Part shown: one piece after another, positions 3,450 to 31,659 of the stretch
How positions within the stretch are numbered: position 1 is the stretch's first letter
Layout of the letters: the number at the start of each line of letters is the position of its first letter
Assembly: GCA_009781695.1 (NCBI GenBank)
Contig: WQVH01000020.1
Span: forward strand, 1-33,783
Direction: 5' to 3'
Source: Oscillospiraceae bacterium
GTDB taxonomy: Bacteria > Bacillota > Clostridia > Oscillospirales > Oscillospiraceae
Length of the DNA stretch: 33,783 nucleotides
Notes under the pieces: model-generated
Told to the model about the DNA's origin: nothing
Databases searched by the model: none
The model's input: the letters and a program-made list of their open reading frames with translations, nothing else
Program-made: the position numbers and the translations under genes

Positions 3450-4712
3450 ATGAAACTTGAGCGACTATACTTTGACATAGAAAATGTCAAATTCGGTGAA
3501 GAACCCTGCATTGACCACCACACTTTGATTCTTGAGCGCAGTGCACTTGAACAACTCGCGCAAGACAGTGCGTTTGCTCGTGTGCAAATAGACATTGCGG
3601 CACCGGGAAGTGATACGCGGATGCTTAATGTGGGTGATATGACGCAGCCGACAGTCCGTTTAGGGGCGAGCGAAACAACATTTCCCGGACTCACAGGCAA
3701 AATGGAGACCGTGGGCGATGGTCGGACGGCGTTACTTCGCGGTGTGGTGGTGACTGAGATCGTCGAAGTAAATGTAGATATTTCAAGCTATCTGCAATTA
3801 TCAGATGTGGCTGCGCAGATAACCGAGCTTGCAGCCATGTGGCATGTAACCATTGATGCATACAAAGCGCCGGGGGTAGAGAAATATGACTATCTATCTG
3901 CGCTCAATCTCGCATCAAAGCGTATTGCAAAATATATAGCAGATTTGGCCGTAGGGCTTAATCCTGATGAGCAAGAGACACTGGAGCTACGGCACGAGAT
4001 TCCGGATGATCTGCCGAGGGTGGCGTATTTGGCGAATGTCTTTTGCCACAGACCATATACCGAATCACTGATCTATGGTGCCAGTATGCTGGAGTCATTG
4101 CCAACCATACTGCATCCGAATGAGATATTGGATGGTGCACTGACCAATCGTGACTATGATAATGCCACCAATGCCGATCCGACATTTGTTTGGCAAAACC
4201 ACCCAATAATATTAGAATTATACCGCAGGCACGGCAAGGATCTAAACTTTGCCGGTGTTGTTGTCAATAATGTCCACCACGAGCTTTCTTGTAAGGAACG
4301 TAATGCAACGATGGCTTGCGCTTTGATCAATAATAATCTCAATGCGGATGCGGTCATCATCACCAAAGAAGGTGGCGGTCATCCTCAAGTTGATATTGGT
4401 ATTGCGACAGACATACTGGAAGGCAAATACGGAATCAAAACGGCGATACTGATGGTCGAGATGTTATCTGCAAAAAATGATTCATATGGGCAAGTGCTCT
4501 TTCAGTCTGAATATGCAGATGCTATGGTTTCTGCAGGGTGCGCCGCTTTTGTGACATTGCCGCCTGCAAAGAAGACTATCGGTATGATGGAGCAAGATAA
4601 CAGAGGCAATACCGCGCAGAGTGCATCCGGAGAGATGGTCATCAATCACCGTGCACTTAAGGGCGGGCAAAGTCAGTTAGGCTACACGAAATATGGCAGT
4701 TTAAAATTTTAA
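3450..4712 (+). CDS. Glycine/sarcosine/betaine reductase component B alpha/beta-type protein (GrdE-like)
   Basis: This 420-residue protein is about as long as GrdE (roughly 428), the proprotein of the substrate-binding component B of the clostridial glycine, sarcosine and betaine reductases. Family segments are clear: a start with VKFGEEP, then ESLIYGASMLESLPTILHPNEILDGAL (about 205-231), NHPIILELYRRHGKDLNFAGVV (250-271), ADAVIITKEGGGHPQVD and LPPAKKTIG. In GrdE the stretch after DGA, as I recall it, carries the Cys at which the chain self-cleaves to form a pyruvoyl group. Here that stretch (TNRDYDNATN, 232-241) has no Cys; the nearest are C199, C281 and C290. The protein may therefore be unprocessed and work differently. 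It is first in an operon with the selenoprotein that follows. Components A and C are not in the window. Confidence 0.85.
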   Translation: MKLERLYFDIENVKFGEEPCIDHHTLILERSALEQLAQDSAFARVQIDIAAPGSDTRMLNVGDMTQPTVRLGASETTFPGLTGKMETVGDGRTALLRGVVVTEIVEVNVDISSYLQLSDVAAQITELAAMWHVTIDAYKAPGVEKYDYLSALNLASKRIAKYIADLAVGLNPDEQETLELRHEIPDDLPRVAYLANVFCHRPYTESLIYGASMLESLPTILHPNEILDGALTNRDYDNATNADPTFVWQNHPIILELYRRHGKDLNFAGVVVNNVHHELSCKERNATMACALINNNLNADAVIITKEGGGHPQVDIGIATDILEGKYGIKTAILMVEMLSAKNDSYGQVLFQSEYADAMVSAGCAAFVTLPPAKKTIGMMEQDNRGNTAQSASGEMVINHRALKGGQSQLGYTKYGSLKF

Positions 4713-4834
4713 CTGTCTCGTATATAGCGCCCACTGATTGCGCATTTCATATTTTATTGAGTAAGATATCGCTACACGAGTTACTGTTTCGCAGCGTTGT
4801 AAGCGATAGCCCGAAGAAAGGACTGAATTTTCAC

Positions 4835-6118
4835 ATGCCGGAGAAACTAAAGGTCATTCATTACCTCAACCAATTTTTCGGACAAATCGGAGGAGAAGAG
4901 TCTGCCGATACCGGAGTGCAGATCAAAAGCGGAGCGATCGGGCCGGGTCTGATTCTGGAAAAAGCGCTAGGTGAGCGTGCGATGATAGAATACACCATCA
5001 TTTGCGGCGATAATTATTTTAACGAAAATGCCGAAAGTGCCATGCAGGAGATCATGAGTTTTGTCGCGGCACATCAGCCGGACTTGTTCTTTGCCGGCCC
5101 TGCGTTCAATGCGGGCAGATATGGTGTCGCTTGCGGTGCGGTCTGTGCGAAGGTGAAAAAGCAAATAGGCATTCCGGCAATTACTGCTATGTTTGAAGAA
5201 AATCCCGGACGTGAGCTGTATGCATCGGATTTGTTTATCCTCAAAGCGCCGGACAATGCGCGAAAAATGGCAGAAACTGTAACAGCCATGGCAGCGTTTG
5301 CTTATAAAATGATAGACGGAACGCTTGAGCGCAATCCCGAAACAGAGCATTTCTTTGAAAGAGGCTGGATGGTCGTAAAAAAATATGAGGACATGGCATC
5401 CAAGCGTGTTGTGGATATGCTGCTTCGTAAGGTGAAGGGGGAGGATTTCAAAACAGAAATGCTTATGCCGGAGAACAAAAAAGTAGATCCGCCCGCACCG
5501 CTTAAGAATCTCAAAGCCGCCACAGTGCTTCTGGCAACAGATGGCGCACTGTGTCCGCAGGGCAATCCCGATGGTATGAAAGTCGGTGATTCTGTGGTCT
5601 TTAATGAATATTCCATCGAGGGGTTGGACACGCTGTCCGAAGCAGATTACACCTGTGTCCATGGTGGTTTTGATACGAGTTTTGTTAAAGATAATCCGAA
5701 TAGGCTGATACCGCTCGATGCGATGCGTGTACTTGAAAATGAGGGGGTTACCAAATTTCACAATGCATTTTTGTCCACCTCAGGGCTGGTGACCGGTGTG
5801 GTTGCGAGTACCAAGATGGGAAAAGAGATGGCGCAATATGTTAAAGATCACAATATTGATGCGGTGATCTTGACATCGACATGAGGAACGTCTACGCGCT
5901 GCGGTGCAGTGATGACTAAGGAACTTGAGATAGCGGGTATTCCTGCGGTACAATATTGCAATATGACACCGGTTGCACAGGCGGTAGGTGTCAATAGGAT
6001 TATGGAGTCGGCGAGTATAAAGTATCCGTTTGGGAATCCGGATGTCCCGGAAGATATTGAGCAAGAAGAGCGTGTGGGTCGTTTGCGTTGTGTGCTGGAC
6101 CGGTTGACATCCCTGTAG
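4835..6118 (+). CDS. Selenocysteine-containing reductase component B gamma-type protein (GrdB-like)
   Basis: One frame runs from 4835 to a TAG at 6116-6118 if the TGA at 5882-5884 is read as selenocysteine, giving 427 residues, close to GrdB (about 436). Before the TGA are VIHYLNQFFGQIGGEE (start), FAGPAFNAGRYGVACG and VHGGFDTSF; directly before it VILTST, and directly after it GTSTRCGAVMTKELE and AGIPAVQYC. This is the GrdB active-site region, whose Sec attacks the substrate carbon in the reductive cleavage. The Sec is residue 350. A hairpin follows the TGA at a suitable distance. The family's U-x-x-C-x-x-C becomes U-x-x-S-x-x-C (S353, C356). I chose the ATG at 4835, which starts like the family, with AAGGA 12 bases before it; the frame is open back to a TTG at 4757. 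Selenium machinery must be encoded elsewhere. Confidence 0.88.
5882..5911 (+). promoter_or_regulatory. UGA selenocysteine codon with candidate bacterial SECIS hairpin
   Basis: The in-frame TGA is at 5882-5884. CGCTGC (5897-5902) can pair with GCAGTG (5906-5911, one G-U pair) around a GGT loop. The loop begins 18 bases after the TGA. Bacterial SECIS elements have a short stem with GGU in the apical loop at about this distance, which SelB recognises. No alternative start or frameshift is needed to explain the family-typical sequence on both sides. Confidence 0.75.
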
Positions 6119-6222: not shown

Positions 6223-7131
6223 ATGGAAATGATGAAAGAGCAAATCAAAGCATTTTCAGAATCTTTGGGCATGGCAGTATGCGGAGTGGCCGGGGTAGAA
6301 AGGTTTGCGACATCACCGGAAGGAAAGCATCCCTGTGATATATTACCGGGGTGTAAATCGGTTATTGTCATCGGTGTCAATCTGCTCGATGGTGTTGTTC
6401 AGGCGAATTTTAGAGCATTTGAAGATGGGCGTGCGGACTTAAAGGGTATCTATGGTACATATGGATACACCATGTTGCCCAACTTCGAACTGACTTATGC
6501 CTGTTATGCCGTTGCAAAATATATTGAGGCAAATAGTGAAGGTATAGCGACACCGTGCTCCACAGGCCCTATGACCAATGGGCTGCAAATCAGTATTCGT
6601 CATGCAGCAGTTGCAGCGGGTTTGGGGCAGTTTGGATACATGAGCATTGTACTGACGCCGAAATATGGTCCAAGGATCCGATTCGGGGTAATATTGACCA
6701 CATTGGAGCTGCCGCAAGACCCAATGTATGATGGGCCGGAGTTGTGTAGCCCGGATTGTACAGTTTGTCAGCAGGTATGTCCGACAGAAGCCATCCGTGA
6801 AAAAGGGTCACATGAACTGGATCATGTACAAATGGGTGACAAGTCATATGATTATACCCATGTCAACTTGCCGAAATGCAGAAAAGCGCTTCAAGCGATG
6901 ACGAAGGAGCTGGGCGGTACGGAGGATTATCTGCTTGAAGAAAATCCAACGCTTGCCGATCTGACCAATGCAGAAAACCGTATGCCGATCAATGTAAGAG
7001 GGCTGCAACATGTAGATTCATGGCACTGCGGTAAGTGCCAAGCGTATTGTCCGGCAGGGGACTGGGCAGAGCGTTATAAAAAAACCGGGCTCAGCAAAGG
7101 GTTTAAAGCGATCTTAAACTCGGCGGAATAA
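6223..7131 (+). CDS. Iron-sulfur protein of the QueG / reductive-dehalogenase-like family
   Basis: This 302-residue protein combines a nitroreductase-like N-terminal half with two [4Fe-4S] sites. The stretch AAVAAGLGQFGYMSIVLTPKYGP (128-150) matches the cofactor-binding region of epoxyqueuosine reductase QueG and reductive dehalogenases (AGLGxxG...L). Cluster ligands are C175, C179, C182 and C186 (CxxxCxxCxxxCP) and C269, C272 and C276 (HCGKCQAYCP), with C219 as a possible eighth. QueG and RdhA use cobalamin; whether this one does cannot be read from sequence. It is too far from QueG in its C-terminus to be called epoxyqueuosine reductase. It lies 104 bases after the selenoprotein and 24 before the alcohol dehydrogenase, so it belongs to that operon, perhaps as an electron carrier or corrinoid reductase. 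No signal peptide is visible. Confidence 0.75.
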   Translation: MEMMKEQIKAFSESLGMAVCGVAGVERFATSPEGKHPCDILPGCKSVIVIGVNLLDGVVQANFRAFEDGRADLKGIYGTYGYTMLPNFELTYACYAVAKYIEANSEGIATPCSTGPMTNGLQISIRHAAVAAGLGQFGYMSIVLTPKYGPRIRFGVILTTLELPQDPMYDGPELCSPDCTVCQQVCPTEAIREKGSHELDHVQMGDKSYDYTHVNLPKCRKALQAMTKELGGTEDYLLEENPTLADLTNAENRMPINVRGLQHVDSWHCGKCQAYCPAGDWAERYKKTGLSKGFKAILNSAE

Positions 7132-13140: not shown

Positions 13141-14070
13141 ATGACAAGAGAGCATTTACAGACGATAATCAATGAATTCAGCGACAAATCGCCGCTCAAC
13201 TACCTCAGTGAAAAAGGGGTGCATACAGATGCGCAAATAGACAATTATGCGAAAAACAACCTATATCAGCATACCGCACCGTTTAGTGAAGATATGCTCG
13301 GTGCGGAGAAAGACAGCGGGTTGGTAGGTATGCGTTTTTACATGCATCCGATTTTTTCCATCGCACGTGCGGATGATCCGATGTTTGATGTCATCAAGCG
13401 CCCGGAGGTGGTCGGGGCGCATCATCTCATGCCTACAGAGTGGCTGCCGGAGGCAAAGTCTGTGATTACATTCTTTCTGCCATTTAATCATGACACGGTC
13501 GAGGCCAATAAAAAAGATCCCCAAGTTCCTGCTGTAGAGTGGGTGTATACAAGGGTTGATGGTCAAAGATTTTTGCTGGCGCTGGGTACGGCGGTGTGTA
13601 ATGCGCTGATTGCCGATGGGTACAAAGCGGTTGCGCCATATACGCAAGACAAATACATCATGCAGGTCAATCTTGAGCCGCCGCCCGGTACTGAGCATGT
13701 GCCGCCGTATTCAACGAATTGGTCGGAACGGCATGTGGGTGTGGTTTCAGGTCTGGGTACTTTTGGGCAATCAACGAATTTTATTTCTAAGATAGGATGC
13801 GCCGGGCGGCTCATCAGTGTGGTGACTGATTGGGAGGTTTCGCCTGATGAGCGTGATTACAGTGATTGGCTGGGGTATTGTAATGATTGTGGGTTGTGCA
13901 TCAAAAAGTGCCATGGCAATTGTTATTTTCCGGACAGGCATGGTAAAGATCATGCGTTGTGCAGTCAGCAGATTCGCAAGGTGTGTGCGCCGTTTGCGCC
14001 ACGGTATGGTTGCGGAAAGTGTCAGTCGGGTATTCCTTGTGAGTATCGGCCTATGAGGAAGAAAGGGTAA
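13141..14070 (+). CDS. Second QueG / reductive-dehalogenase-like iron-sulfur protein
   Basis: This 309-residue protein has two cluster-binding regions near the end: C247, C250, C253 and C257 (CNDCGLCIKKC) and C291, C294 and C300 (CGKCQSGIPC), with C274 and C282 as further candidates. The middle carries HVGVVSGLGTFGQSTNFISKIGCAGR (198-223), equivalent to the cofactor loop of QueG-like proteins and similar in layout to the protein encoded at 6223. The second cluster site is followed by a short R/K-rich tail. No twin-arginine signal is present, so it is cytoplasmic, unlike respiratory reductive dehalogenases. It stands alone behind the shared element, and a repeat pair and terminator follow. It may reduce a corrinoid or deliver electrons to a partner enzyme; this is inference. 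Confidence 0.7.
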   Translation: MTREHLQTIINEFSDKSPLNYLSEKGVHTDAQIDNYAKNNLYQHTAPFSEDMLGAEKDSGLVGMRFYMHPIFSIARADDPMFDVIKRPEVVGAHHLMPTEWLPEAKSVITFFLPFNHDTVEANKKDPQVPAVEWVYTRVDGQRFLLALGTAVCNALIADGYKAVAPYTQDKYIMQVNLEPPPGTEHVPPYSTNWSERHVGVVSGLGTFGQSTNFISKIGCAGRLISVVTDWEVSPDERDYSDWLGYCNDCGLCIKKCHGNCYFPDRHGKDHALCSQQIRKVCAPFAPRYGCGKCQSGIPCEYRPMRKKG

Positions 14071-14274: not shown

Positions 14275-15378
14275 TTACTCGTAGAACTCCCTGCTATATG
14301 CATAGAGCTCATTGGCAACAGTCCACGTCTCTTTCGGATCGACATTGCGTAAAAACGGAACATAACCGCCGCCCGGTGCGTATTTTTCGACATTGTTCCT
14401 GACAATCTTGACGAGCTCATCATCGGTATATGTCTTGCCAATTTCCAGACCGTCCATTGGCGTGACAAACCCAATCTTATCGCCATACTTTGCCTTGAGC
14501 ATTTGCATATCATTTGCCCTGGGCTGCATCCAAACTAAATCAATATCCAACGCTGAGATGTATGGGAAAAAGCGTTCAATCTTACCGCATGAATGCAGCT
14601 CAAACACTTTGCCTGCGCCCTTGATATGATCTACTATTTTTTTTGTTGGTTCATATACCAGTTCTTCCATCATTTTTTCAGAGAAGAATGTGTCGCGCTC
14701 GGTACCCCAATCGTCGTGGTATGTAACATAATCGACAGGGTAAAGCTCATTGAGCAGATCAAAATAATCTGTCATATACTGAGCAAAGCGCCAGAAGAAA
14801 TCCCTACAGGCCTCCGGTTCTTCCGCAAGTGCCATCATGCCCTCGCCGTATCCACCGAGAAATGCCACAAGCATTTCGGTGAGACCTTGGTAAATGTTGA
14901 CATGCATTGCCTTTTCAGGGTCGTACTCGTTTTTCATGAATTGCGCTGCTTTTTCGCGGAAGTTCCAGTCATCAAAATTGGGGAATTTTATTAGTTTTTC
15001 CCAATCGCAAATATCCTCGACGACCTTGGTTCCGGGTGTAAGCATGGCACCATGGGCATCTGCACACCATGTCCAAGAGTTTCCAAATGAATCTAAAAAT
15101 GTATAGTCTACCGGCGAAGGGGCATGAAAGCGTGGTCCAAGTTGTTTGTCTCCTCTTTCGTCAGCCAGTTCGTTAGGGAGGCGATACTGTAAGTCCGAAT
15201 ATGAGATAGGTACCCACATTGGATTTTCGTGCCTTGCAGCACGCAAGAAATTTTCGCGGCGTGATATGGGCGCTTCAAACACAGGTGCAGTCGCAGGTGC
15301 AGCGCCGAAGAAGCCTGTGCCATTGGTGGTTGTTTTTAAAGCGGGGTCTTGATACGGATGCCTTGGATATTTCTTCAT
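14275..15378 (-). CDS. Uroporphyrinogen decarboxylase (URO-D) family protein, paralogue 1
   Basis: This 367-residue protein has the URO-D/methyltransferase TIM-barrel layout. Conserved blocks are RRENFLRAARHENPMWVP (40-57), HDDWGTERDTFFSE (221-234), H262-x-C264 (LHSCG), and near the end YAPGGGYVPF. Bacterial members of about this length are usually methyl-corrinoid:acceptor methyltransferases (MtaA-like) rather than haem enzymes. MtaA-type zinc sites use H-x-C plus a later Cys; no Cys follows HSC here, so zinc binding is incomplete. I chose the ATG at 15378 (AGGAG seven bases upstream; an ATG three bases earlier is also possible). It is 46 bases after the zinc alcohol dehydrogenase in the same operon. 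About half of its residues look shared with the gene at 30520. Confidence 0.85.
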   Translation of the reverse strand: MKKYPRHPYQDPALKTTTNGTGFFGAAPATAPVFEAPISRRENFLRAARHENPMWVPISYSDLQYRLPNELADERGDKQLGPRFHAPSPVDYTFLDSFGNSWTWCADAHGAMLTPGTKVVEDICDWEKLIKFPNFDDWNFREKAAQFMKNEYDPEKAMHVNIYQGLTEMLVAFLGGYGEGMMALAEEPEACRDFFWRFAQYMTDYFDLLNELYPVDYVTYHDDWGTERDTFFSEKMMEELVYEPTKKIVDHIKGAGKVFELHSCGKIERFFPYISALDIDLVWMQPRANDMQMLKAKYGDKIGFVTPMDGLEIGKTYTDDELVKIVRNNVEKYAPGGGYVPFLRNVDPKETWTVANELYAYSREFYE

Positions 15379-15424
15379 CATGATACTCCTCTTTACAAAA
15401 TTGATTAGGTAGACTCCCGGCAGC

Positions 15425-16555
15425 TTATAGTCCCAGTTTTTGCGCATATTCATCATCGCAGATGACGATGTTCTTCAGTGCGCCGCGCTCAGAGTCATCC
15501 AGCGCTTCTTGTATGTCATCTAATTTGAATTTGTTCGATAGCAGCGCATCGATATCTATTTGTCCGGTACGGTACATTTCCATATATTTCGGAATGTCAC
15601 GTCTGAGCGTTACCCCGCCCATAACGCAGCCGGTTAGTTTCTTGCTGAGCAGAAAATCAAAGAAGTTAAACTCATGCATTCCTTCATTGCGAAAATGCTC
15701 ATGCCCAACGACTACCATTTGACCATAAAGTGCAGTGAGGTCCCAAGTCATACGCTTTACATCTCCGGCCACGGCAACCATGCTGTGGTCAACACCATAA
15801 CCGCCGGTGATGTCTTTGACCGCTTGCACGACATCCTTTACCTCTTTTGGATTGATGCAATGTGTTGCGCCGAATTTTTTTGCAGCTTCTAATTTTACTG
15901 GATTTATATCAATTGCGATGATTGGAACGCAACCGCAATGCTTTGCACCCATGATGGCAGACAGGCCGACCCCGCCGCACCCTGTGACAGCATACGACTG
16001 TCCGGGGGTGGGTTTAGAGCGATTGAGCACCGCACCAAATCCCGACATGAAACCGCACGCAAGCGCCGAGCCGATTTCGAAAGGAATATCATCATCAAGC
16101 TTGCATAACATGGCCTCATGCGCATTAGTATATGTAGCAAACCCTGCGGTTCCGGAGCAGGTTTGTACAACACGCTCACCATTTAAGCGTGTGAAGCAGC
16201 CCGGTACTCTAAAGGACATCGGCGGGATATTTTCGCAGAACCAATGCCTGTCGTTATAACATTGTTCGCAGTTGCCGCATCCTTGGCGCACTTCGCTGCA
16301 TAGTACTCGATCTCCCGGCTTGACATAGGTCACTTTGGAGCCAATCTCGGTGACGACTCCGGCAATTTCATGTCCGGCAGCGCCGGGGCCTTCATATTCA
16401 CCATGCTCACCGGTGTTGGCATGTATATCGCTATGACAGATGGTGCAGGTCATTACCTTAAGCCGCACATCATGATCTCCAAGATCGTCAAGTATTACCT
16501 CTTCTACAACTACTTCACGCCCCATTCGCGGAGCTACTGCAAGTTTTACACGCAT
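15425..16555 (-). CDS. Zinc-dependent alcohol dehydrogenase (medium-chain family)
   Basis: This 376-residue enzyme oxidises an alcohol or reduces an aldehyde with NAD(P). The catalytic zinc site is visible as C40-H41-S-D (TICHSD) and H62-E63 (AGHE); the structural zinc ligands are C93, C96, C99 and C107 (CGNCEQC...C). The Rossmann motif GCGGVGLSA follows, then ID at the end of the second strand (AIDINPVK), which suggests NAD over NADP. The overall layout resembles class III / aryl-alcohol dehydrogenases. The start ATG has AAAGG 11 bases upstream. It is first in a two-gene operon with the URO-D family gene, behind a clear promoter and a copy of the shared element. Confidence 0.93.
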   Translation of the reverse strand: MRVKLAVAPRMGREVVVEEVILDDLGDHDVRLKVMTCTICHSDIHANTGEHGEYEGPGAAGHEIAGVVTEIGSKVTYVKPGDRVLCSEVRQGCGNCEQCYNDRHWFCENIPPMSFRVPGCFTRLNGERVVQTCSGTAGFATYTNAHEAMLCKLDDDIPFEIGSALACGFMSGFGAVLNRSKPTPGQSYAVTGCGGVGLSAIMGAKHCGCVPIIAIDINPVKLEAAKKFGATHCINPKEVKDVVQAVKDITGGYGVDHSMVAVAGDVKRMTWDLTALYGQMVVVGHEHFRNEGMHEFNFFDFLLSKKLTGCVMGGVTLRRDIPKYMEMYRTGQIDIDALLSNKFKLDDIQEALDDSERGALKNIVICDDEYAQKLGL

Positions 16556-16894: not shown

Positions 16895-17764
16895 CTAACA
16901 GCCATCAAGAAGATACTGTATGAGCGTGTCGTGCAATTGGTCAGGGTATTCAGCAAGACTGACTGCGCATGTCGTCAAAAGTGGATTTTCAGACAAATTT
17001 AAAGCAACAACACCGCTGATATTCTGGATATCTACAGTCTTCTCCGTCAGCAAAGTGACACCATTACCCGCCGCCACATTGATGAGTAACGTGCTCAAAC
17101 GCAATGTACTGTATTCCACATCGGGTACAAAGCCTGCCGCAATGCATACATTGAGCAAATATCTATACATGAGGCTATCGCCCTTGTATAGAAGAAATTT
17201 TTCGCCTTGAAGTGCATTGGTAGATATGGTCTTACACTGAGCCAGCGGGTGATCTGTAGATACAACAGCACAAAGCTTGTCTTGGCTAATGGGGTGTGCG
17301 CGTGGATATTTTTTGCTTATTATTTGCTCATAAACTATACCAATATCTGCCCGCCCAGAATTCAGCATGGAGCAAATTTCATTTGAAGAGCACTCGGTGA
17401 CGGCGACCTCAACTTTCGGGTGCGCCTTTATAAAGGCGGTGAGCTGTCTCATGACGTGAGATTGCTGATATCCTATGCCGATACTGATATGTGAGTCATA
17501 TGGAGAAGTATGCGTGCGGAGTTCTCTGCGCATATCATCATATTGCTTGGCCATGTATTTGATGCTGGGATATATGAGTTCGCCCTCTCGTGTCAGGACT
17601 TTTCTTGAGCCTTTTCTGATAAAAAGCGTGACTGAAAACTCATCTTCGAGTCTGTCGATGTATTTTGAGAGTGTGGATAAACTGAGTCCGAGTGCGGAGG
17701 CAGTGATGGACATTTTTTGAGTTTCTGCAAGACTTATAAAGCATATCATCTGCAAATATGTCAT
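16895..17764 (-). CDS. LysR-family transcriptional regulator
   Basis: This 289-residue regulator has an N-terminal helix-turn-helix (residues 1-60, with MSITASALGLSLSTLSKYIDRLEDEF) and an effector-binding domain from about 90 (SHISIGIGYQQSHVM; ADIGIVYEQ). The ATG has AGGAGG 11 bases upstream. It is divergent from the MFS transporter with a 222-base gap holding a promoter for each, the classical arrangement for a LysR protein controlling its neighbour. Together with the LysR at 8432 it is a candidate to bind the shared element. Confidence 0.93.
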   Translation of the reverse strand: MTYLQMICFISLAETQKMSITASALGLSLSTLSKYIDRLEDEFSVTLFIRKGSRKVLTREGELIYPSIKYMAKQYDDMRRELRTHTSPYDSHISIGIGYQQSHVMRQLTAFIKAHPKVEVAVTECSSNEICSMLNSGRADIGIVYEQIISKKYPRAHPISQDKLCAVVSTDHPLAQCKTISTNALQGEKFLLYKGDSLMYRYLLNVCIAAGFVPDVEYSTLRLSTLLINVAAGNGVTLLTEKTVDIQNISGVVALNLSENPLLTTCAVSLAEYPDQLHDTLIQYLLDGC

Positions 17765-17986: not shown

Positions 17987-19180
17987 TTGGAAATAAACAA
18001 TACCGATGCAAAACAGTCAGGCAGCAAGGCGTTGATGTTGGTACTCTTGCTCATTGCCCTGATCCAAATGCCGCAGATCGCAGTTTTACCCGCCATTGAA
18101 CAACTGACAACCGAGGTCTTTCCCGACAGAACCTTACAATCCATCCAGACGGTGATGGGGCTGATTAGCTTCATGAGCGTGGCCACGGGAATTATAGGTG
18201 CAATCATCATAAGATGGGGCGTGTCCTCTAAAAAAACAGTGACGATATTGGGTATCGTTTTGATTGCGTCAGCAGGTGTTGGTGCGTTTTTCCTCAATAC
18301 TCGATTCTGGCATGTCATTGTGCTCAATGCTTTGATCGGTGCAGGTATGGGTTTTTGTATCCCCAATTCTCAGAGTATTGTGTTTGACAGTTTTGACGAG
18401 AAGAGACGTCAATTCATGGTGGGTATGACATCGGCGTTTCTCAGTGCCGGTGGCGTGATCATGGGTGTCGGCGGTGGACTGCTGATTGCCATCGTATGGT
18501 ATGGCGGGTACTTAATGGCATTATTGGCGCTTCCGGTCATCGTGCTGAGCATCATTTATATACCATCGGCAAGGCAGAGCGTTCTCAATGATGCGAAAAG
18601 AAGTTCAAAATTACCCGGTGCGGTATTCTTTTACGGCGCACTGATTTTTCTTTTCTCTGTTGTGTTTAATGTGGCGGGTATGAATATTTCAACACATATA
18701 GCCAATGGGAATATTGGTGATGCGGCGTTTGCCGGGCTTGCTGCTGCAATGCCCATGTTGGGTGGTATTGTCATGGGACTTTTGTTTGTTAAGATGTCCA
18801 ATGCGCTCGGTGATAAGATATTGCCGTTGGCCTTTTTCATGCTCTTTGTCGGGTTTACGATATTGAATGTGTTTCCGACTTCGCTTGTGATGACATTGCT
18901 TGCGATGTTTCTCAAGGGTCTGGGGTTAAGTATGTTCATGCCGCGCTGTTTGTTTAATGTTTCCAATATAACAGATCCGTCCAATTCGTCTACAGCGACA
19001 ATGCTTGTGCTAAGCATTGCACCCGGTAGCGGCGGATTTTTATCGCCCATAATTATGACCAATCTGACATTTGCGTTGGGCGGAGATTCTACCCGATTCA
19101 GATATCAGTTTACAGGATTTGTATGTCTGGCAATTTCGATTGTGGTATTTTTGATGATCAGTCGGAAGAAAACAGATTAG
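17987..19180 (+). CDS. Major facilitator superfamily transporter
   Basis: This 397-residue membrane protein has about 12 predicted spans in two halves separated near residue 205 by a charged stretch (ARQSVLNDAKRSSKLPG). It starts with TTG at 17987; AGGAG lies ten bases before it and no ATG fits the first span. The loop after span 4 has GMGFCIPNSQSIVFDSFDEKRRQ, an MFS-like arrangement. A small-molecule importer or exporter is likely; the substrate cannot be told. It is divergent from the LysR gene at 17764, its probable regulator. Confidence 0.85.
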   Translation: MEINNTDAKQSGSKALMLVLLLIALIQMPQIAVLPAIEQLTTEVFPDRTLQSIQTVMGLISFMSVATGIIGAIIIRWGVSSKKTVTILGIVLIASAGVGAFFLNTRFWHVIVLNALIGAGMGFCIPNSQSIVFDSFDEKRRQFMVGMTSAFLSAGGVIMGVGGGLLIAIVWYGGYLMALLALPVIVLSIIYIPSARQSVLNDAKRSSKLPGAVFFYGALIFLFSVVFNVAGMNISTHIANGNIGDAAFAGLAAAMPMLGGIVMGLLFVKMSNALGDKILPLAFFMLFVGFTILNVFPTSLVMTLLAMFLKGLGLSMFMPRCLFNVSNITDPSNSSTATMLVLSIAPGSGGFLSPIIMTNLTFALGGDSTRFRYQFTGFVCLAISIVVFLMISRKKTD

Positions 19181-23397: not shown

Positions 23398-24645
23398 TTA
23401 CCCTCCGGCAAAATGCGCCGGGGGATCAAGTCGTGCCGAGAACATATCAATTGTTGGCGTTACAGGGAAATTGCTGACATCGAGTCCGGTATATAAATCG
23501 ACCCACTCCATGTAGTAATGCCAAGTATCACGCGTGATGATGATTGTCGGCAGCATAAGATATGCAAAGGTTTCGTTGTTAGAATGGTTGATCCATTCGG
23601 GAGCAAACAGCGTCTCTTCTGTGGCATAGCCCATAACGAGTGCATAGAGTCCGAAGAATATCGGCTCTGCAAAAATCACACCGATAGACACAAACGATGC
23701 TTTAAAATCATTTTCAATGCCGGCTTCCCATTGTGCCATCAGACCCGGACCGCCCATAGAAATGGCTACAGTTTGGCCTTCCAGACCTGCATCACGTGCT
23801 GCGGTTACAGCGCCGTCTGCAAAGTCATCAACTGTGCCGAGAATCAGCCAGTGTGTGATATCAGGATTTGCGGCAAATACAGGGCCCGCCACTTGATAAG
23901 CTGTAGATGAGTTAAGTGTACCTACAATGGTGTCCGGTCTGAAAAATCTATCTTCTATGCCCGGAATAGCAGGGAAAATGATGTCTTTTGCACCATCGAT
24001 GCGGACGCTGATTTCATGAACATGTGACCAATCGACACCCATAAATCCTATGTTTTCAATCGGCACATCTTGCCAGTTGTCTTGCCAATACTGAACAAGC
24101 CATCTGCCCATTTCCTCACCAACGAAACGGAAATCAAATCCTACAAATGGATTGGTCAAGCGGCCTGTGTCTGCATCCAGAGGCAGTCCCATACCGGGCA
24201 TAAACGGAACACCCAGATCACGCATTATGGCGACTACCGCAGGGTAGTTGACCATTTCCGGATCAAGCAGAAGTCCATCGTAACCTTGCAGGACGAGCAT
24301 TTCAAGCATAGAGTTAAACAAATCATCATCATCGTTTGCATCAAATATGCTGACTTCAACGTTTGCAAGTTCGGCCCAGATTCTAAATGAGTTGGCCATG
24401 TCTTCATAGAGTGGACTGTTTCGGATGCGCAGGTATGCAAATCTCAGTCTGTCGTTTGCAAAATAATCATAGTCGGGATTAAAGAAGCCGATGTCTGTCT
24501 TCCCTGTGCGCAGTGGGGTAGCAGCACTGCCTCCATCATTTCCGCCGGCAGGTGTTGCGGGTGCATCGCCGCCATTATCTGCGGCACACGCTACGAGCGC
24601 AAATGTCATTGCCATTGCAAGCAGGATTGCCAATACTTTTTTCAT
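23398..24645 (-). CDS. Sugar-type ABC transporter substrate-binding lipoprotein
   Basis: This 415-residue protein starts with a lipoprotein signal: MKKVLAILLAMAMTFALVAC with the lipid-anchored C20, then a Gly/Ala/Pro-rich linker. The mature part has the type I periplasmic-binding fold (DIGFFNPDYDYFANDRLRF, then VEVSIFDANDDDDLFNSMLEMLVLQGYDGLLLDPE and later IGFMGVDWS and WLILGTVDDFADGAVTAARDAGLEG), typical of pentose/autoinducer-like binding proteins. The ATG has AAGGAG seven bases upstream. It is last in the operon, behind its two permeases and ATPase, and the terminator follows. The long linker and length are more than in RbsB. The substrate is unknown. Confidence 0.9.
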   Translation of the reverse strand: MKKVLAILLAMAMTFALVACAADNGGDAPATPAGGNDGGSAATPLRTGKTDIGFFNPDYDYFANDRLRFAYLRIRNSPLYEDMANSFRIWAELANVEVSIFDANDDDDLFNSMLEMLVLQGYDGLLLDPEMVNYPAVVAIMRDLGVPFMPGMGLPLDADTGRLTNPFVGFDFRFVGEEMGRWLVQYWQDNWQDVPIENIGFMGVDWSHVHEISVRIDGAKDIIFPAIPGIEDRFFRPDTIVGTLNSSTAYQVAGPVFAANPDITHWLILGTVDDFADGAVTAARDAGLEGQTVAISMGGPGLMAQWEAGIENDFKASFVSIGVIFAEPIFFGLYALVMGYATEETLFAPEWINHSNNETFAYLMLPTIIITRDTWHYYMEWVDLYTGLDVSNFPVTPTIDMFSARLDPPAHFAGG

Positions 24646-24747
24646 TTCTCATTCTCCTTTTTTGATTTTATTAAGTCCTCATAATATACAAAACATGGTG
24701 CTCCATTTATTCTTGCTTGAAGCTTACAAACCATGGTCTGTCCTATG

Positions 24748-25764
24748 TTACGCAGTGGTTGTCGTCTTTTTGCTCTTGCGCTTGGCGCGCGGACTTCTGT
24801 ATGTCGCCCTGCTGCGCATATAGTCAAATGCCAGCGATACCAGCAGCAGCATACCGAAGATCGCCTGATTCCAGAACGAATCGACCCGCAGCAGGAACAT
24901 CCCATTGGCAAAAGCTGAGAAAATCAGCAAGCCGACAAAAGCACCACCCAGTCCACCTGTGCCTCCGCCAAAAGAAACGCCGCCCAGAATTGCCGCAATC
25001 AGTCCGAAAAACTGTCTGTCGGTAATGCCCAATGTGGTGGCAGCAGCCACACGTGAGTTAAACATGATGCCTGCAAAAGCGCCCAGCACGGAGCTATTGA
25101 TAAACAGGATATATGAAATCCGCCGGGAATTGATACCCACCAACCTTGACGCTGTGGGGTTCGAACCCACGAGATAGATCTGGCGGCCGAATTTGGTTTT
25201 AGAAAGAATAATTCCATAAACAATGAAAAATACCAATAAAATGATTATGGAAAATGGGATGGTGTTATTCATAAACCGCCCGGTGGCTAAGTTGCGCATG
25301 AATGGATCGGACAAGGATACATTGGCACCCCCGGAGAACAAAAACGAAACACCCTCTGCAACGGAGGCCATGCCGAGTGTGGCTATAAATGCGGGGAATT
25401 TTGCAAAATTGACGAGTGTGGCATTGATGAGTCCGAATACCGCAGCGAGCGCCAAGCAAAGAATCAGCGCAACAGCCCAGTGGAAATGATGATATCTCAG
25501 AAGTACGGCAAACATCATACCTGCCATCGTACCGACAGTGCCAACGGAGAGATCCAGTGCTCCGGCAATCAAGAGTAGCGTTGCACCGATCGTCATCATT
25601 CCGGTAATGATCATCATGTCCAAAATGGTTCGGATATTGATCGGGTGTAAGAATATCCCATTAGAACCAATTTGTACAATGGTGGACAAGATTGCAAGCA
25701 GTACAATCAATGCGAACATCTTTGATTTTACGATTTTTATCATGCCGCCTAAAATATCTGCCAT
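24748..25764 (-). CDS. Ribose-type ABC transporter permease 1
   Basis: This 338-residue inner-membrane permease of the RbsC/XylH type has about eight to ten spans. The features GALDLSVGTVGTMAGMMFA (near 66) and, towards the end, AAILGGVSFGGGTGGLGGAFVGLL with GTGG are the family signature of the EAA-equivalent region. The C-terminal tail is rich in Lys/Arg. It sits downstream of the ATPase; a second, related permease is upstream, so the importer probably uses a heterodimer. Confidence 0.92.
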   Translation of the reverse strand: MADILGGMIKIVKSKMFALIVLLAILSTIVQIGSNGIFLHPINIRTILDMMIITGMMTIGATLLLIAGALDLSVGTVGTMAGMMFAVLLRYHHFHWAVALILCLALAAVFGLINATLVNFAKFPAFIATLGMASVAEGVSFLFSGGANVSLSDPFMRNLATGRFMNNTIPFSIIILLVFFIVYGIILSKTKFGRQIYLVGSNPTASRLVGINSRRISYILFINSSVLGAFAGIMFNSRVAAATTLGITDRQFFGLIAAILGGVSFGGGTGGLGGAFVGLLIFSAFANGMFLLRVDSFWNQAIFGMLLLVSLAFDYMRSRATYRSPRAKRKSKKTTTTA

Positions 25765-25806
25765 ATCTGTACGCCCCCTTGTGTTTTCAGGTGTCCTGTG
25801 TGCAGC

Positions 25807-27297
25807 TTAATGGTGCATTGCGAGTTTGAGAACCTTTTCTTCGGTTGCCTCTTGCCTTGAAAGCGACCCGGTGATGCGTCCTTGCGCCATAACAATGATG
25901 CGGTCGGCAAGATTAATGACCTCTGTCAGTTCGGAAGAAATAAAGATCACCGCCAGACCGGCCTTGGCAAAATCGCAAATGGCCTGATAAATCTCAGCCT
26001 TAGCCCCTACATCGATACCCTTGGTAGGCTCATCGAGAATGAGTACCTTGGTGACCATGGCCTCAGATGTCCATCGACCCAATATGACCTTTTGCTGATT
26101 GCCTCCTGAAAGCTCGACAACCTTCTTTTCTATGGAAGGGGTCTTGATGGAGTATTTTTCAACTGCGGCATGAGATAATTTGCGTTCTTTTTTCTTGTCT
26201 AGGAAGAGCCCGGTCTTGACCTTTTCCAGTACGGCTGAGGTGATGTTATTATTGATGGTGCGATCAAGTACCAGTCCTTGCTCTTTTCTATCTTCGGGGC
26301 ATAGCGCCATACCGGCAGCAATCGCATCTTTGGGAGATTTGAAATTTACCTTTTGGCCATTGAGAAAAATTTCTCCGGAACTGATCGGGTCGGCTGCGAA
26401 TATAGCGCGTGCAAGCTCTGTTCTTCCTGCACCGATCAGTCCCGCAAATCCAACGATTTCGCCCGCACGTACTTCCAGATTGATATCGTGGACATCATCT
26501 GTTTCGAGATTTCTTACTTCAAGCATGACTTCGCCTATATTTTCGTTTCGGCACAGTTCGGCATAGGTATCTCCGATATCGCGCCCGACCATTGCAGTAA
26601 TCAGCTCCTGCTCGGTGGTTTCATCTGCGTTTAACTCACATACAAGCTTGCCATCTTTGAGGACAACGATATCATCCGAAATCTGAAATATCTCAGACAT
26701 GCGATGTGAGACATAGATAATCACTTTGCCGGCCTCTTTGAGCCGCCGGATGACTTTAAAAAGCGTGTTGATCTCGCTTTCTGACAGCGGGGCAGTCGGT
26801 TCATCAAATGCAATGATTTCAGAATCACGCCGATATGCTTTCATAATTTCAATCATTTGCTGATGTGCAACAGATAAACGCCCAACCGGCTCTGATGGAT
26901 TGACATCCAGTTCAAACTCATCGAGAATATGCTGCGTCATTTTGCGCAGCGCCGCCTTATCGATACGAATACCCTTTTTAGGCAGATCCTCAATAAAAAT
27001 ATTTTCCATGACAGACAGACCCGGAACCAACTGACGTTCCTGATAAATAACACTGATGCTGGCTTTGAGCGCACCATGCGGAGAGTGATAACTTGCAGGC
27101 ATACCATCAATGATGATTGTGCCCTCATCTGCCTGATAGTCGCCGCTTAAAATCTTTAACATGGTGCTCTTGCCTGCGCCATTTTCGCCCATGAGTGCGC
27201 AGATGCGGCCGCCTTGCACCCGAAAGCTTACATCATCCAGTGCCTGTACACCGGGGAAGCCCTTGCTGATTTTGTTAAACTCTACATAGTTCGGCAA
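25807..27297 (-). CDS. Ribose-type ABC transporter ATP-binding protein (two nucleotide-binding domains)
   Basis: A fused ATPase of RbsA/MglA type. Domain 1 has Walker A GENGAGKST (37-45), signature LSVAHQQ and Walker B FDEPTAPLS. Domain 2 has a degenerate Walker A GAGRTEL, signature LSGGNQQKVILGRW and Walker B LILDEPTKGID, as usual in this family. I chose the TTG at 27297 (496 residues), with AGAGGA 11 bases upstream, because it starts like the family; a GTG at 27318 overlaps that ribosome-binding site. It energises the two permeases on either side. Confidence 0.93.
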   Translation of the reverse strand: MPNYVEFNKISKGFPGVQALDDVSFRVQGGRICALMGENGAGKSTMLKILSGDYQADEGTIIIDGMPASYHSPHGALKASISVIYQERQLVPGLSVMENIFIEDLPKKGIRIDKAALRKMTQHILDEFELDVNPSEPVGRLSVAHQQMIEIMKAYRRDSEIIAFDEPTAPLSESEINTLFKVIRRLKEAGKVIIYVSHRMSEIFQISDDIVVLKDGKLVCELNADETTEQELITAMVGRDIGDTYAELCRNENIGEVMLEVRNLETDDVHDINLEVRAGEIVGFAGLIGAGRTELARAIFAADPISSGEIFLNGQKVNFKSPKDAIAAGMALCPEDRKEQGLVLDRTINNNITSAVLEKVKTGLFLDKKKERKLSHAAVEKYSIKTPSIEKKVVELSGGNQQKVILGRWTSEAMVTKVLILDEPTKGIDVGAKAEIYQAICDFAKAGLAVIFISSELTEVINLADRIIVMAQGRITGSLSRQEATEEKVLKLAMHH

Positions 27298-27357
27298 ATT
27301 ATGACACCATCCTCTCACAGATTCTGACTCATATGAATGATCATTTTCCTAACTGTC

Positions 27358-28389
27358 TTACTGAGACTTAGCGGCGGCAATCTCCGCAGCTCCGGCTCGG
27401 AGTGCTTTAGCCCGCTGCCGCTCTCTGAAAAAGTCAAGCATCAAAGCGGCGATGAGGATCGCACCTCTTGCGATCGTCTGCCAATAAGGCCCGATGCCAA
27501 TCATCATCAAACCATTATTAAAGAAATTGAGCAGCAGCAAGCCAACCAAGAAGCCCCCGGTACCGCCTGCGCCGCCGGAAAAAGAAATGCCGCCCAGAAC
27601 AGCTGCGGTGACAGCATCCATGCCAAGCGTTATGGCCACAGGGTCACCCCTGCGGAAATTAGAAGCAAAAAGCACACCGCAAAACGCTGAAATAGCACCG
27701 CTGTTTATAAAAAGTATGCTTTGAATCTTCTTAGGATTGATGCCTGCAAGCCTTGCTGCTGTAGGGTTGCCGCCGACAATGTACACACTTCTGCCGAATC
27801 GGGTCTGTGAGAGTATGAAGCCGTACAGTGCGACAAAAAACAGCATGATAATAAACAAGAGCGGGATCGATTGAAAGAACCGTATGTCGGCAATAGCCCA
27901 GAATCCGGGATTGTTGATGGTTACGGGATTTCCGCGCGTGAGCACAAGCGCCAACCCACCCCAGACTGACATCATACCGATGGTTGCAATAAACGACATC
28001 ATACCCAGCCCATTGACGAGTATTGCGGTAATACCGCCTGCGGCTGCACCAAATAAAATAGTAATCAGCGCAGCGATAGGCCAAGGGATACCGGAGCTGA
28101 TGAGCATGGCGACAAGCACGGCGGCCATAACGGCTATTGCGCCGGTGGAAAGGTCGATCTGCCCTGAAATCAAAAGCAAGCCGACACCGAGACCCAATAA
28201 TCCGACGAAACTGGTTATGGTCAGGAGTATGAGTACATTTTGCCATCCGAGATAGTTCGGATTCATCAGCCGGAAGAAAACGATGACAACAATGGTCACT
28301 ACAATAAGCAAAGTGACTTTGTGGTTAAGAATGTACGAGCCGAGGCTCTGTGTGCCATGAACTTTTTTTTCTTTTGATGAATTTTCCAT
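27358..28389 (-). CDS. Ribose-type ABC transporter permease 2
   Basis: This 343-residue membrane protein is related to the permease at 24748 (shared ISGQIDLSTGAIAVMAAVLVAM and GISFSGGAGGTGGFLVG). The N-terminus is a cytoplasmic charged stretch before the first span. I chose the ATG at 28389 with AAGAGG five bases upstream; a GTG lies six bases earlier. It follows the aconitase X genes by about 50 bases, which places the importer in the same transcript. Confidence 0.92.
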   Translation of the reverse strand: MENSSKEKKVHGTQSLGSYILNHKVTLLIVVTIVVIVFFRLMNPNYLGWQNVLILLTITSFVGLLGLGVGLLLISGQIDLSTGAIAVMAAVLVAMLISSGIPWPIAALITILFGAAAGGITAILVNGLGMMSFIATIGMMSVWGGLALVLTRGNPVTINNPGFWAIADIRFFQSIPLLFIIMLFFVALYGFILSQTRFGRSVYIVGGNPTAARLAGINPKKIQSILFINSGAISAFCGVLFASNFRRGDPVAITLGMDAVTAAVLGGISFSGGAGGTGGFLVGLLLLNFFNNGLMMIGIGPYWQTIARGAILIAALMLDFFRERQRAKALRAGAAEIAAAKSQ

Positions 28390-28439
28390 AAGCACCTCTT
28401 ATCCGTAATAGATATATATGAGATAGATTCAAAAATGGA

Positions 28440-28844
28440 CTATGCTTCTTTTTTGGTGATTTCTATATATCCTTCATCGGCATTGACAAAAACCATATCA
28501 CCGGTTTCGATATACTGCATGGGGTCTTCTTCGAAATCAGTGACGCTGGGGACTCTGGCCTGTGCCATGCATAAGACAGTCAGCGGACTGGATTTGGTGT
28601 GAACAAAAGCTGCGGGTTTTGCGCCAAACCCATATTTCATAAATCCTCCGGAACCCCGCGGCGAATAGAAGACCAGAACCTTGTCGGTATATGGCACTCT
28701 GCACAGCGGATGATTGCGTTCTGTGGTAAAACCGCGTATAGAATCAACATTGGTAAAGCCTTGGAGATATTTCGGTGCAACCAGCGCCTCTGCAGTGACT
28801 TTACCCGGATATTGACAGCGTCCATAAATACGTTTCGTTGCCAT
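28440..28844 (-). CDS. Aconitase X swivelling subunit (DUF126)
   Basis: This 134-residue protein is the small subunit of two-part aconitase X enzymes (RIYGRCQYPGKVTAEALV at the start, GGFMKYGFGAKPAAFVHTKSSPLTVLCMAQARVPSVT in the middle, TGDMVFVNADEGYIEI at the end). The swivelling domain closes over the active site of the large subunit. The start ATG has GGAGG six bases upstream that overlaps the end of the large-subunit gene, and only three bases separate the two, so they are translationally coupled. Confidence 0.9.
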   Translation of the reverse strand: MATKRIYGRCQYPGKVTAEALVAPKYLQGFTNVDSIRGFTTERNHPLCRVPYTDKVLVFYSPRGSGGFMKYGFGAKPAAFVHTKSSPLTVLCMAQARVPSVTDFEEDPMQYIETGDMVFVNADEGYIEITKKEA

Positions 28845-28847
28845 GTG

Positions 28848-30167
28848 CTACCTCCATTCCCCGCGCCACTTACCTGTAATAGCGGCATCGATACACTCGT
28901 CTGTAGAGCCATAGCTGATATATAGCTGATCATGCTCATCAGGATAACAACCGGTGATATAAAATGCTTGCTTTGCCGTATCAACAGCGATGTTGCGGAC
29001 ACCATCCGGTACAGAACCGACAGCGGCAAGACATGTACCGGTAAGCAAGAGCGCTCCGGCTTTTTCGAATTTTTCAAGGAAGCCCAGCTCTTTTGCGGGA
29101 CCGTAAAGCCAAGGTGCTGTAACGATCCAGAGCGGTACTTTACATTTTTTGCCTTCGAGCTTTTGCGCAAGCATCATCAGATCAACAATATTTAAGTGCG
29201 GACAGCCGAGATAGACCATGTCCACATTGTCGCTCTGACGGTAGTTGAGCACGTCATATGTCCGTCTCAATGCCGCCTCGTCAATACGGATCGTTTCTTT
29301 GATGGGCCTTCCACCTGATGCAAATTCAATAGTCGGTGCCTCAGGGGTGATGCCCGGCAGATGGTACATGCGCACTGCGCCGCCGGTCGCAACAGCTGAA
29401 TTGAATTTTTGGTACTGCGTTGTGTTGGGAATGACCGTGCCTGTAACTATAGGCACTTCCACATCGCAAGCCTCACCGATGGCGAAGCCGTAGACATCCC
29501 ACTCCAGATCGCTTTTGATGAGCCGATCACTTTCAATCAAAATAGTTCCGTAGCGATTTTCAGTGATATGCATGTCATAATAGGGGGCTTTGCCCAACAA
29601 GCATGTCGCCAGTGTGCCGTCAAAATTAGTCCTTGCGCCGAGGGTAGCGTTACAGTAAGTCTGTTGGCTGCTCTCAAACCACGAACAATGCTGACCAACA
29701 CTCGGCAGATACGACATGACCAGATAATTGGCGCATGAATGCGTGGTGATAAGTCCCATCTTGTTGAGTACATCAAAGACATCGCGTTGCATGGCTCTTT
29801 CATGAAATACCGGATCACTCTGTAAAAAAGCGGGATTTTTGCCCGCACACAGGTTACAATGCTCCCAACCGTGGATGGGCGGCTGCTCCATAAAAGGTGA
29901 TTTGTCGGCAAAAGTCGGAATCTTAAATCGCCCGCCTCTATCGGCAAAATCACGCAGCTCATCAATCGTAATCACATGATGCTGGCTGAGATTGAGACCG
30001 GGTGTGTGCATATCACCTGTGCCGTCAAGGTCTACCAGACGCTCTGCGCCCGATATTTGACACAGCTCAACAAGATAGGCCATGCACTTTTGCTTTACTA
30101 TGCCCTCGCCGCCGTCCAGTATGCGCTTTTCCTCATCGGTGAGCGCTGGGTAAGCGAATAAACTCAT
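28848..30167 (-). CDS. Aconitase X catalytic subunit (DUF521)
   Basis: This 439-residue large subunit of aconitase X has the family features: THSCANYLV (142-150), the stretch ending in ESSQQTYCNATLGARTN (166-181) and, near the end, a G-T-C. Known members with two subunits dehydrate small hydroxy acids: cis-3-hydroxy-L-proline in bacteria, mevalonate 5-phosphate in archaea. The reaction here is unproven. The ATG has AAGGGAGAG upstream. It heads the six-gene operon that ends with the ABC importer, so its substrate probably comes in by that importer. Confidence 0.88.
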   Translation of the reverse strand: MSLFAYPALTDEEKRILDGGEGIVKQKCMAYLVELCQISGAERLVDLDGTGDMHTPGLNLSQHHVITIDELRDFADRGGRFKIPTFADKSPFMEQPPIHGWEHCNLCAGKNPAFLQSDPVFHERAMQRDVFDVLNKMGLITTHSCANYLVMSYLPSVGQHCSWFESSQQTYCNATLGARTNFDGTLATCLLGKAPYYDMHITENRYGTILIESDRLIKSDLEWDVYGFAIGEACDVEVPIVTGTVIPNTTQYQKFNSAVATGGAVRMYHLPGITPEAPTIEFASGGRPIKETIRIDEAALRRTYDVLNYRQSDNVDMVYLGCPHLNIVDLMMLAQKLEGKKCKVPLWIVTAPWLYGPAKELGFLEKFEKAGALLLTGTCLAAVGSVPDGVRNIAVDTAKQAFYITGCYPDEHDQLYISYGSTDECIDAAITGKWRGEWR

Positions 30168-30519: not shown

Positions 30520-31629
30520 ATGAAATATGCTCGCCCGAAGTATCGTGATCCATCGGTGGAAACACAGACCGTAAGAATGGCATATGGCCCAAACACCGTA
30601 ACCGCACCCAAATTTAATACGCCGATTACCCCACGAGAGAATTTCCGCCGCAGCATTGAAAGGAAAGACCCCCTATGGATGCCTAACGCGCTAACCGATA
30701 AATTTACACTAGGCTCTAATGACGTAGCGCTCCACGAAGTGCGCGGCATGCAGATCCATTCAGACTTTTTGCGCAAGCCGACTGAGGACTATGCGTACAA
30801 AGACTGGTTTAACACGGATTGGACTTGGGTATGCTCTGCCGGAGGCGGTATGCTGACACCCGGAACGAAGCTCTTAGATGATATCACTCAGTGGGAAAAA
30901 AGAATAGTTTTTCCGGATTTTAGCGAATGGGGATTTGAGGAAAAAGCGGCGCAATACATGAAAGAAGTGCATGATCCGAACAAGGCACTATCTTATGATA
31001 TGGGACGCGGACTCACTGAGCGGCTGGTTTCCATATTGGGCGGCTATGAGGACTCTATGGAAGCGCTCGTTGTTGAACCTGAGGCTGTGCTGGATTTCTT
31101 CAATGCATATGCTGACTTTATGATTAAGTTTTTCGATAAAGTAAACGCGCTGTATCCGCTGGATATTGTAACAATACACGATGATTGGGGTACCGAAAGA
31201 GATACATTCTTCTCAGAAAAGGTGATGGAAGACCTCGTATTTGAGCCGACCAAACGTGTATTGGATCACATAAAGTCCAAAGATGTATTCATTGAATGGC
31301 ATACATGCGGCAACGTCACACGCTTTTTCCCATATATGTATGCGCTAAATTGTGATATTGCTCAAGTGCAGCGCAGGGCTGTGGATATGCCGAAAATGAA
31401 AGAAAAATATGGTGATCGCATCGGATTTTGCTGTGCTCCTGAGGGTTTGGATATCACAAAGCCCATAGTTCCGGAAGAATATATAGAAGCAATCAAAAAG
31501 ACTGTAGATATTTATGCTCCGGGTGGAGGCAGCTATATACTGATGTTTAACCCGGACGAGGAGCTTGTGTGGAATGCCTGTGCCGAAGCGTATTACCGCA
31601 GTATGGAACTATATGATAACGTGCGTTAA
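30520..31629 (+). CDS. Uroporphyrinogen decarboxylase (URO-D) family protein, paralogue 2
   Basis: This 369-residue paralogue of the protein at 14275-15378 shares the blocks MLTPGTK, DDWGTERDTFFSEK (221-234), the H261-x-C263 pair (HTCG) and YAPGGGSYI, and an N-terminus with PITPRENFRRSIERKDPLWMP. As in the other copy the later zinc-ligand Cys of MtaA-type methyltransferases is not in its usual place (GG instead of GC), although FCC occurs after the HTCG. The ATG has GGAGG six bases upstream. It is followed, 30 bases on, by an FAD oxidoreductase, and no corrinoid protein gene is nearby. Methyl transfer is thus only one possibility. Confidence 0.85.
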   Translation: MKYARPKYRDPSVETQTVRMAYGPNTVTAPKFNTPITPRENFRRSIERKDPLWMPNALTDKFTLGSNDVALHEVRGMQIHSDFLRKPTEDYAYKDWFNTDWTWVCSAGGGMLTPGTKLLDDITQWEKRIVFPDFSEWGFEEKAAQYMKEVHDPNKALSYDMGRGLTERLVSILGGYEDSMEALVVEPEAVLDFFNAYADFMIKFFDKVNALYPLDIVTIHDDWGTERDTFFSEKVMEDLVFEPTKRVLDHIKSKDVFIEWHTCGNVTRFFPYMYALNCDIAQVQRRAVDMPKMKEKYGDRIGFCCAPEGLDITKPIVPEEYIEAIKKTVDIYAPGGGSYILMFNPDEELVWNACAEAYYRSMELYDNVR

Positions 31630-31659
31630 ATATCAGGCCGCATGTTTGGAGGGAATGAA

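Follow-up and report, generated by a model that had tools for sequence, protein, structure and literature searches.

Reductases of the glycine reductase superfamily are known, from family models and papers, to act on glycine, sarcosine, betaine, D-proline and fluoroacetate. UxxC, in which U is selenocysteine (Sec), is the family motif, and GrdA likely interacts with UxxCxxC, according to the available text of a 2026 review (PMC13188914). In GrdE, a cysteine pair serves the formation of the pyruvoyl group; in fluoroacetate reductase, FarB is without a conserved CxxC and FarE is without the two processing cysteines, as stated in the available part of PMC10838667. FarEB is also the one UxxS-type case that was found described in the literature, again in the portion available of that paper (PMC10838667).

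Here, these systems are compared with a gene pair on a stretch of 33,783 nucleotides from an Oscillospiraceae bacterium (contig WQVH01000020.1), hereafter referred to as the window. GrdE/GrdB and GrdG/GrdF of Peptoclostridium acidaminophilum (L202) agree with the window pair in fold family, Sec site and SECIS. However, they have UxxC, and GrdG has the processing site GNCVAPC, neither of which is present in the window. In the case of betaine reductase GrdH from Enterococcus gilvus (L201), the accompanying alpha subunit likewise lacks the first processing cysteine, but GrdH keeps UGTC, unlike the window selenoprotein B. FarE/FarB of Pyramidobacter sp. C12-8 (L146/L179) are like the window pair in having a UxxSxxC protein B, an alpha without processing cysteines and a sister position in the B tree. 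They differ in their gene neighbours and in the alpha subunit, which is 33% identical to Pyramidobacter FarE; furthermore, Cys240 and Cys274 of B and Cys364 of alpha are found only in the clade of the window proteins.

The in-frame UGA and its SECIS hairpin

The selenoprotein B gene is located on the forward strand at 4835-6118 and encodes 427 residues, with Sec350 in the motif UGTSTRC. Its sole in-frame TGA (5882-5884) is preceded by VILTST and followed by GTSTRCGA, and the gene ends with TAG. A sequence-only reading had proposed a GrdB-like reductase subunit with Sec at this residue and between these flanks, and the read-through frame bears this out: TIGR01918 scores 455.5 bits (cut-off 65.45) over residues 6-424, spanning both sides of the UGA, and PF07355 scores 428.8 bits (cut-off 22). 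Exactly one in-frame TGA, in the same motif, occurs in the matched range of 80 out of 80 relatives (the best 80 of 106, from named genomes). The codon is also common to all 143 sequences of a B set gathered by the pattern U[GA][TSAC]xxRC, which a B with a different motif would escape (145 matches, from which two false ones in a wrong frame were dropped; loci repeating others were left out). Downstream of the UGA, 62 of 76 residues are identical to the protein of L007, an Oscillospiraceae MAG with a B that is 74% identical overall, and in this part the two genes differ at 16% of first, 9% of second and 58% of third codon positions. The window genome (G000; 106 contigs, 98.4% complete, 2.2% contamination) contains selA and selD on contig C4 and selB, above cut-off, on both C78 and C4, each selB being adjoined by a tRNA-Sec with anticodon UCA.

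The SECIS hairpin CGCTGC-GGT-GCAGTG lies at 5897-5911 on the forward strand. As the sequence-only reading had described, a stem with a GGT loop begins 13 bases past the UGA: the 5' arm CGCTGC (5897-5902) starts at the 13th base and is followed by the loop (5903-5905) and the 3' arm GCAGTG (5906-5911). The six stem pairs are, in order, standard in 127, 143, 143, 143, 143 and 141 of the 143 sequences. At the third pair, T-A (133), C-G (8) and A-T (2) are used and a broken pair is never seen; in the proteins with the UxxS motif it is C-G in seven out of nine, corresponding to Arg CGC with Val GTG. When the 3' arm is moved along by 1-3 bases, the share of cells that pair is 17-80%, versus 98% unshifted. 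The stem codons are strongly skewed compared with the remainder of the same genes: Ala GCA in 140/141 (28% elsewhere), Cys TGC in 141/143 (53%) and Arg CGT in 133/143 (14%). Because of this skew, and because the third pair is never broken across three pair types, the hairpin can be considered as going beyond chance. Its folding energy is ordinary (z 0.54 for 5876-5930, with 140 of 200 shuffles at least equally stable) and Rfam has no match within the window at the gathering score; therefore, the case for a SECIS rests on comparison. A covariance model, built with 40 further sequences that exclude the UxxS type, matches the window at 5882-5926 with 41.6 bits (E 3.3e-8), and thus this check, proposed beforehand, turned out in favour of the site. 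The three clade-mates score 37-38 bits and the more canonical grdB of the window genome 70.3 bits, while the next match has an E of 0.22. As coding sequence contributes to the score too, the match does not speak for structure only.

That the UGA is a genuine stop, or that the gene is in decay, is hardly credible. Under translation table 11 a 375-residue open reading frame does terminate at the UGA, closing at 5884, and the hairpin energy is ordinary; however, the SECIS is conserved, the sequence past the UGA is constrained and selA, selB, selD and tRNA-Sec are all in the genome. On these grounds, together with the covariance model match, a stop or pseudogene was rejected. In line with the read-through put forward earlier, comparative sequence evidence strongly supports the decoding of UGA 5882-5884 as Sec, under a SECIS that is conserved; neither of the two findings named beforehand as contrary to it, a genome lacking the selABCD genes or a loss of conservation past the UGA, is seen here. 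Calling the selenoprotein "hidden" is overstated: its family is a well-known one, and in RefSeq plasmid records grdH and grdF are each annotated as a single gene across the UGA. The Sec reading is correct but ordinary, the selenoprotein B family being already covered by TIGR01918 and PF07355.

The UxxSxxC motif and an alpha partner without processing cysteines

The GrdB label holds for the broad family, but it passed over the fact that the window protein is an atypical member. Its motif is UxxSxxC (UGTSTRC) and not UxxCxxC. The residue at Sec+3 is Cys in 134 of the 143 B subunits and Ser in nine, namely those of the window, L007, L093, L094, L149, L151, L146, L106 and L118. The alpha subunit of the component-B complex is encoded at 3450-4712 on the forward strand (PF09338, 281.9 bits against 22.2) and adjoins the B gene, as the selenoprotein B family requires; an alpha reading frame is found upstream of B in 138 of 143 cases. 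Canonical alphas have GNCVxxCDK. In the window alpha, Tyr236 and Thr240 occupy the two processing-cysteine sites, and the cysteine from which the pyruvoyl group is made is absent.

The first processing cysteine is present in none of the nine alphas of UxxS pairs, versus 125 of 129 in UxxC pairs (three are without it and one is gapped). These counts do not represent independent events, because the UxxS proteins mostly go back to a single origin; the same applies to the UxxS and non-pyruvoyl traits, so that few events underlie the link between them. Furthermore, the E. gilvus alpha without the first cysteine stands beside a GrdH with UGTC, and therefore the two losses can be separate.

The window clade has additional residues of its own. 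Cys240 and Cys274 are both present in B of all four members, in 0 of 134 UxxC proteins and in 0 of 3 proteins of the FarB group (L118 and L106 uncounted). In the clade, Cys353 is replaced by Ser, and Arg179, found in 134/134 UxxC proteins, by Met, while in alpha Cys364 takes the place of an Asn present in 124 of 133. Cys240 adjoins P241-x-G243-N244-P245 and Cys274 adjoins H276-G277-G278, columns that are invariant in 37 sequences. One guess would be that Cys240 and Cys274 stand in for the lost Cys353. The window clade is a natural setting in which to ask whether Sec turnover depends on the UxxC cysteine. An AlphaFold model of B, with Sec entered as Cys, has a pLDDT of 90.6 and a pTM of 0.58. 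Among solved structures, there was no match by sequence at E 0.001, profiles gave five at E 0.1-0.9, unrelated by name, and Foldseek gave four at E <= 0.001 with a TM of about 0.2 and an rmsd over 20.

Relationship to fluoroacetate reductase

The FarE model NF053623 is the best model for the window alpha, with 231.4 bits against a cut-off of 675 (GrdG model, 191.3 of 780), and the window-clade alphas score 217-241 bits. The alpha adjoining L146 (Pyramidobacter sp. C12-8) is above the cut-off with 935 of 675 bits, and for this reason the UGTSSRC protein of L146 was taken as FarB. Of the other alphas, that of L151 reaches 838 bits and that of L149 489 bits, below the cut-off.

A careful tree of B was built from 58 rows, for which the motif columns were kept, 34 of the other rows were drawn at random and the long-branched L118, L106, L079 and L028 were left out. 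The four rows of the window clade are grouped in it at 100/100 and joined with the three rows of the FarB group at 100/99.7. A quick tree of all 143 B rows unites eight of the nine UxxS proteins (98), with L106 outside. A FastTree of 129 alphas groups the four rows of the window clade (100), but two changes are required for the complete group of UxxS partners, and the set of eight around them includes one other row. Judged from these sequences, the window clade appears to be kin of FarEB and not a member.

Two observations concern the Far loci themselves. Beside farE of Pyramidobacter sp. C12-8, L179:8814-9635 encodes a 273-residue protein resembling the C-terminal half of selenoprotein B, in which Cys replaces Sec (STCGTSTRCGA). 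The FarB-type gene L151:1501-2779 (G610), which adjoins an above-cut-off FarE, has an in-frame TAA in addition to the TGA; the TAA is a matter of decay or of an assembly error.

Gene neighbourhoods

At 6223-7131 on the forward strand, 104 bases downstream of B, starts a gene for an Fe-S protein with a distant likeness to QueG and reductive dehalogenases, both scores being below the family cut-offs (TIGR00276, 52.4 of 200 bits; TIGR02486, 46.9 of 160 bits). A second protein of Fe-S type is encoded at 13141-14070 and had no match among the families scanned; both proteins have cysteine clusters.

On the contig (L178) of L007, the nearest relative, the pair is at the end of a run of genes on one strand, encoding LysR, zinc alcohol dehydrogenase, the large and small subunits of aconitase X, an ABC ATPase, two permeases, a binding protein, a URO-D-like protein, alpha and B. 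The window homologues of this run are spread over 14.3-32.9 kb. On the reverse strand, a URO-D-like protein (14275-15456), a zinc alcohol dehydrogenase (15425-16555), a LysR regulator (16895-17764), a sugar-type ABC transporter (23398-28395) and the small (28440-28844) and large (28848-30167) subunits of aconitase X all have homologues beside the pair in L178. On the forward strand, a second URO-D-like protein (30520-31629) and an FAD oxidoreductase (31642-32901) also have homologues in L178. Identity between window and L007 is 88% for the alcohol dehydrogenase and aconitase X, 81% for the small subunit of the latter, 80% for the FAD oxidoreductase, 66% for the ATPase, 62% for LysR and 32-49% for the permeases, binding protein and URO-D-like protein. 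The value of 88% for the genes at 15425-16555 and 28848-30167 exceeds that of MnmE nearby (73%), a difference that transfer or strong constraint may explain. Within the clade, the aconitase X set is common to the window and L007 only. The two window URO-D-like proteins are 46% identical, each near catabolic genes, and no solved relative was found for the second.

Elsewhere the surroundings are different. In G149 the genes after the pair encode a TRAP transporter and a glycyl radical enzyme. The G219 locus runs LysR, selA, selB, tRNA-Sec, alpha, B, trxB, trxA, grdA, grdC and grdD; this LysR is of the selenium-associated type (321 bits versus 250), and the B of the pair is the only protein B found. 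A search among viral contigs with the L093 protein gave one pattern match and no relative, and the 23 plasmid records that matched are all below 60% identity. Among 295 genomes around G400, the matches at E <= 1e-120 were G400 and one place with the contig number and coordinates of G149, which is probably the same genome.

In the window, no grdA, grdC or grdD was found among the scanned reading frames. In the same genome, contig C42 carries grdA with a TGA, a second grdB with a TGA, trxB and trxA, and contig C4 carries a grdC homologue followed by a grdD homologue. The C42 pair is more canonical, although its alpha is itself below the GrdG cut-off (634 bits of 780).

Possible function of the pair

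On the basis of sequence comparison, 3450-6118 can with good confidence be proposed to encode a substrate-specific component-B pair (alpha and selenoprotein B) of the glycine reductase superfamily that is of the Far type, forms no Schiff base and feeds GrdA and GrdC. The compound on which it acts is probably another than fluoroacetate. A carboxylate substrate would be bound without a Schiff base, after which Sec350 would displace its leaving group, giving a carboxyalkyl-selenocysteine. The carboxyalkyl group would then pass to GrdA (contig C42) and GrdC/GrdD (contig C4) would release an acyl-phosphate, with thioredoxin as the presumed reductant. That GrdA/GrdC are fed by the pair is best supported by the arrangement in G219. 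Against this proposal, few events link the UxxS and non-pyruvoyl traits, the alpha tree does not unite all the UxxS partners, L106 is outside the UxxS clade of B, the neighbours differ within the clade and the scanned reading frames of the window include no grdA, grdC or grdD.

Several other roles have to be weighed against this one. If it were a canonical protein B, with glycine, sarcosine or betaine as substrate, the family and the Sec site would be identical, and the alpha beside E. gilvus grdH is also without the first cysteine; however, the window B is below the curated cut-offs of all the models for these classes (TIGR01917, 392 of 602 bits; GrdF, 452 of 800; GrdH, 442 of 775), GrdF and GrdH have UGTC, and the C42 pair, albeit below cut-off as well, is already available for such a role. 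A canonical substrate class, rejected by the cut-offs, is thus unlikely. It is slightly less probable still that a Far-like pair bypasses GrdA and GrdC, the substrate being only dehalogenated or deoxygenated and then released. The distance of the window pair from grdA (C42) and grdC (C4) would fit such a bypass, but in G219 the pair is inside the grdA-grdC-grdD run as the only protein B found there.

A true but diverged fluoroacetate reductase is very improbable. FarE is indeed the top model for alpha, UxxS and the absence of processing cysteines are common to both, the clades are sisters and the alphas share residues, His132 and His311 among them. On the other hand, alpha stays at 231 of 675 bits and 33% identity to Pyramidobacter FarE, the clade is separate with Cys240, Cys274 and Met179 of its own, and neither a radical SAM protein nor an MFS antiporter was found among the scanned genes adjoining the pair, the nearest MFS gene being at 17987-19180. 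Membership of FarEB was rejected by the FarE cut-off.

For the preferred component-B pair of the Far type, the run in L178, in which the pair comes last after the genes for aconitase X, the zinc alcohol dehydrogenase, the sugar-type ABC transporter and the URO-D-like protein, suggests a possible role as a single step within a catabolic cluster. Only tentatively can one go further and suppose a new substrate class, in which Cys240 and Cys274 serve Sec350 in its redox cycle in place of the lost Cys353 and the cluster with aconitase X, the zinc alcohol dehydrogenase and the sugar-type transporter handles a non-amine compound. What appears to be new is a Far-type, non-pyruvoyl UxxS branch with conserved cysteines of its own. 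A sister clade of fluoroacetate reductase with its own conserved changes suggests that one more compound is reduced in a way that yields energy.

Duplicated selB genes

The window genome has two complete selB-tRNA-Sec pairs, on C78 (L091:354-2374) and C4 (L092:6894-8963), and is the only one with two whole copies among 19 genomes of the genus. Contamination may be a source of this doubling. Two compensated tRNA-Sec are on record in eight bacterial genomes, according to the available part of PMC5330540. G219 also has two SelB proteins, 42% identical (L138:5333-7249 and L139:5904-7802), one within the UxxS reductase operon and the other without a tRNA-Sec in the surrounding 14 kb. Among 14 chosen genomes, two SelB at E <= 1e-60 were found only in G000 and G219, with none in the genome of L007, and a link between a second SelB/tRNA-Sec set and the UxxS reductase was not borne out in this sample. 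The two SelBs of the window genome are sisters with 50% identity and a base make-up that agrees with the window, and both its tRNA-Sec have a GCCA end and seven acceptor pairs.
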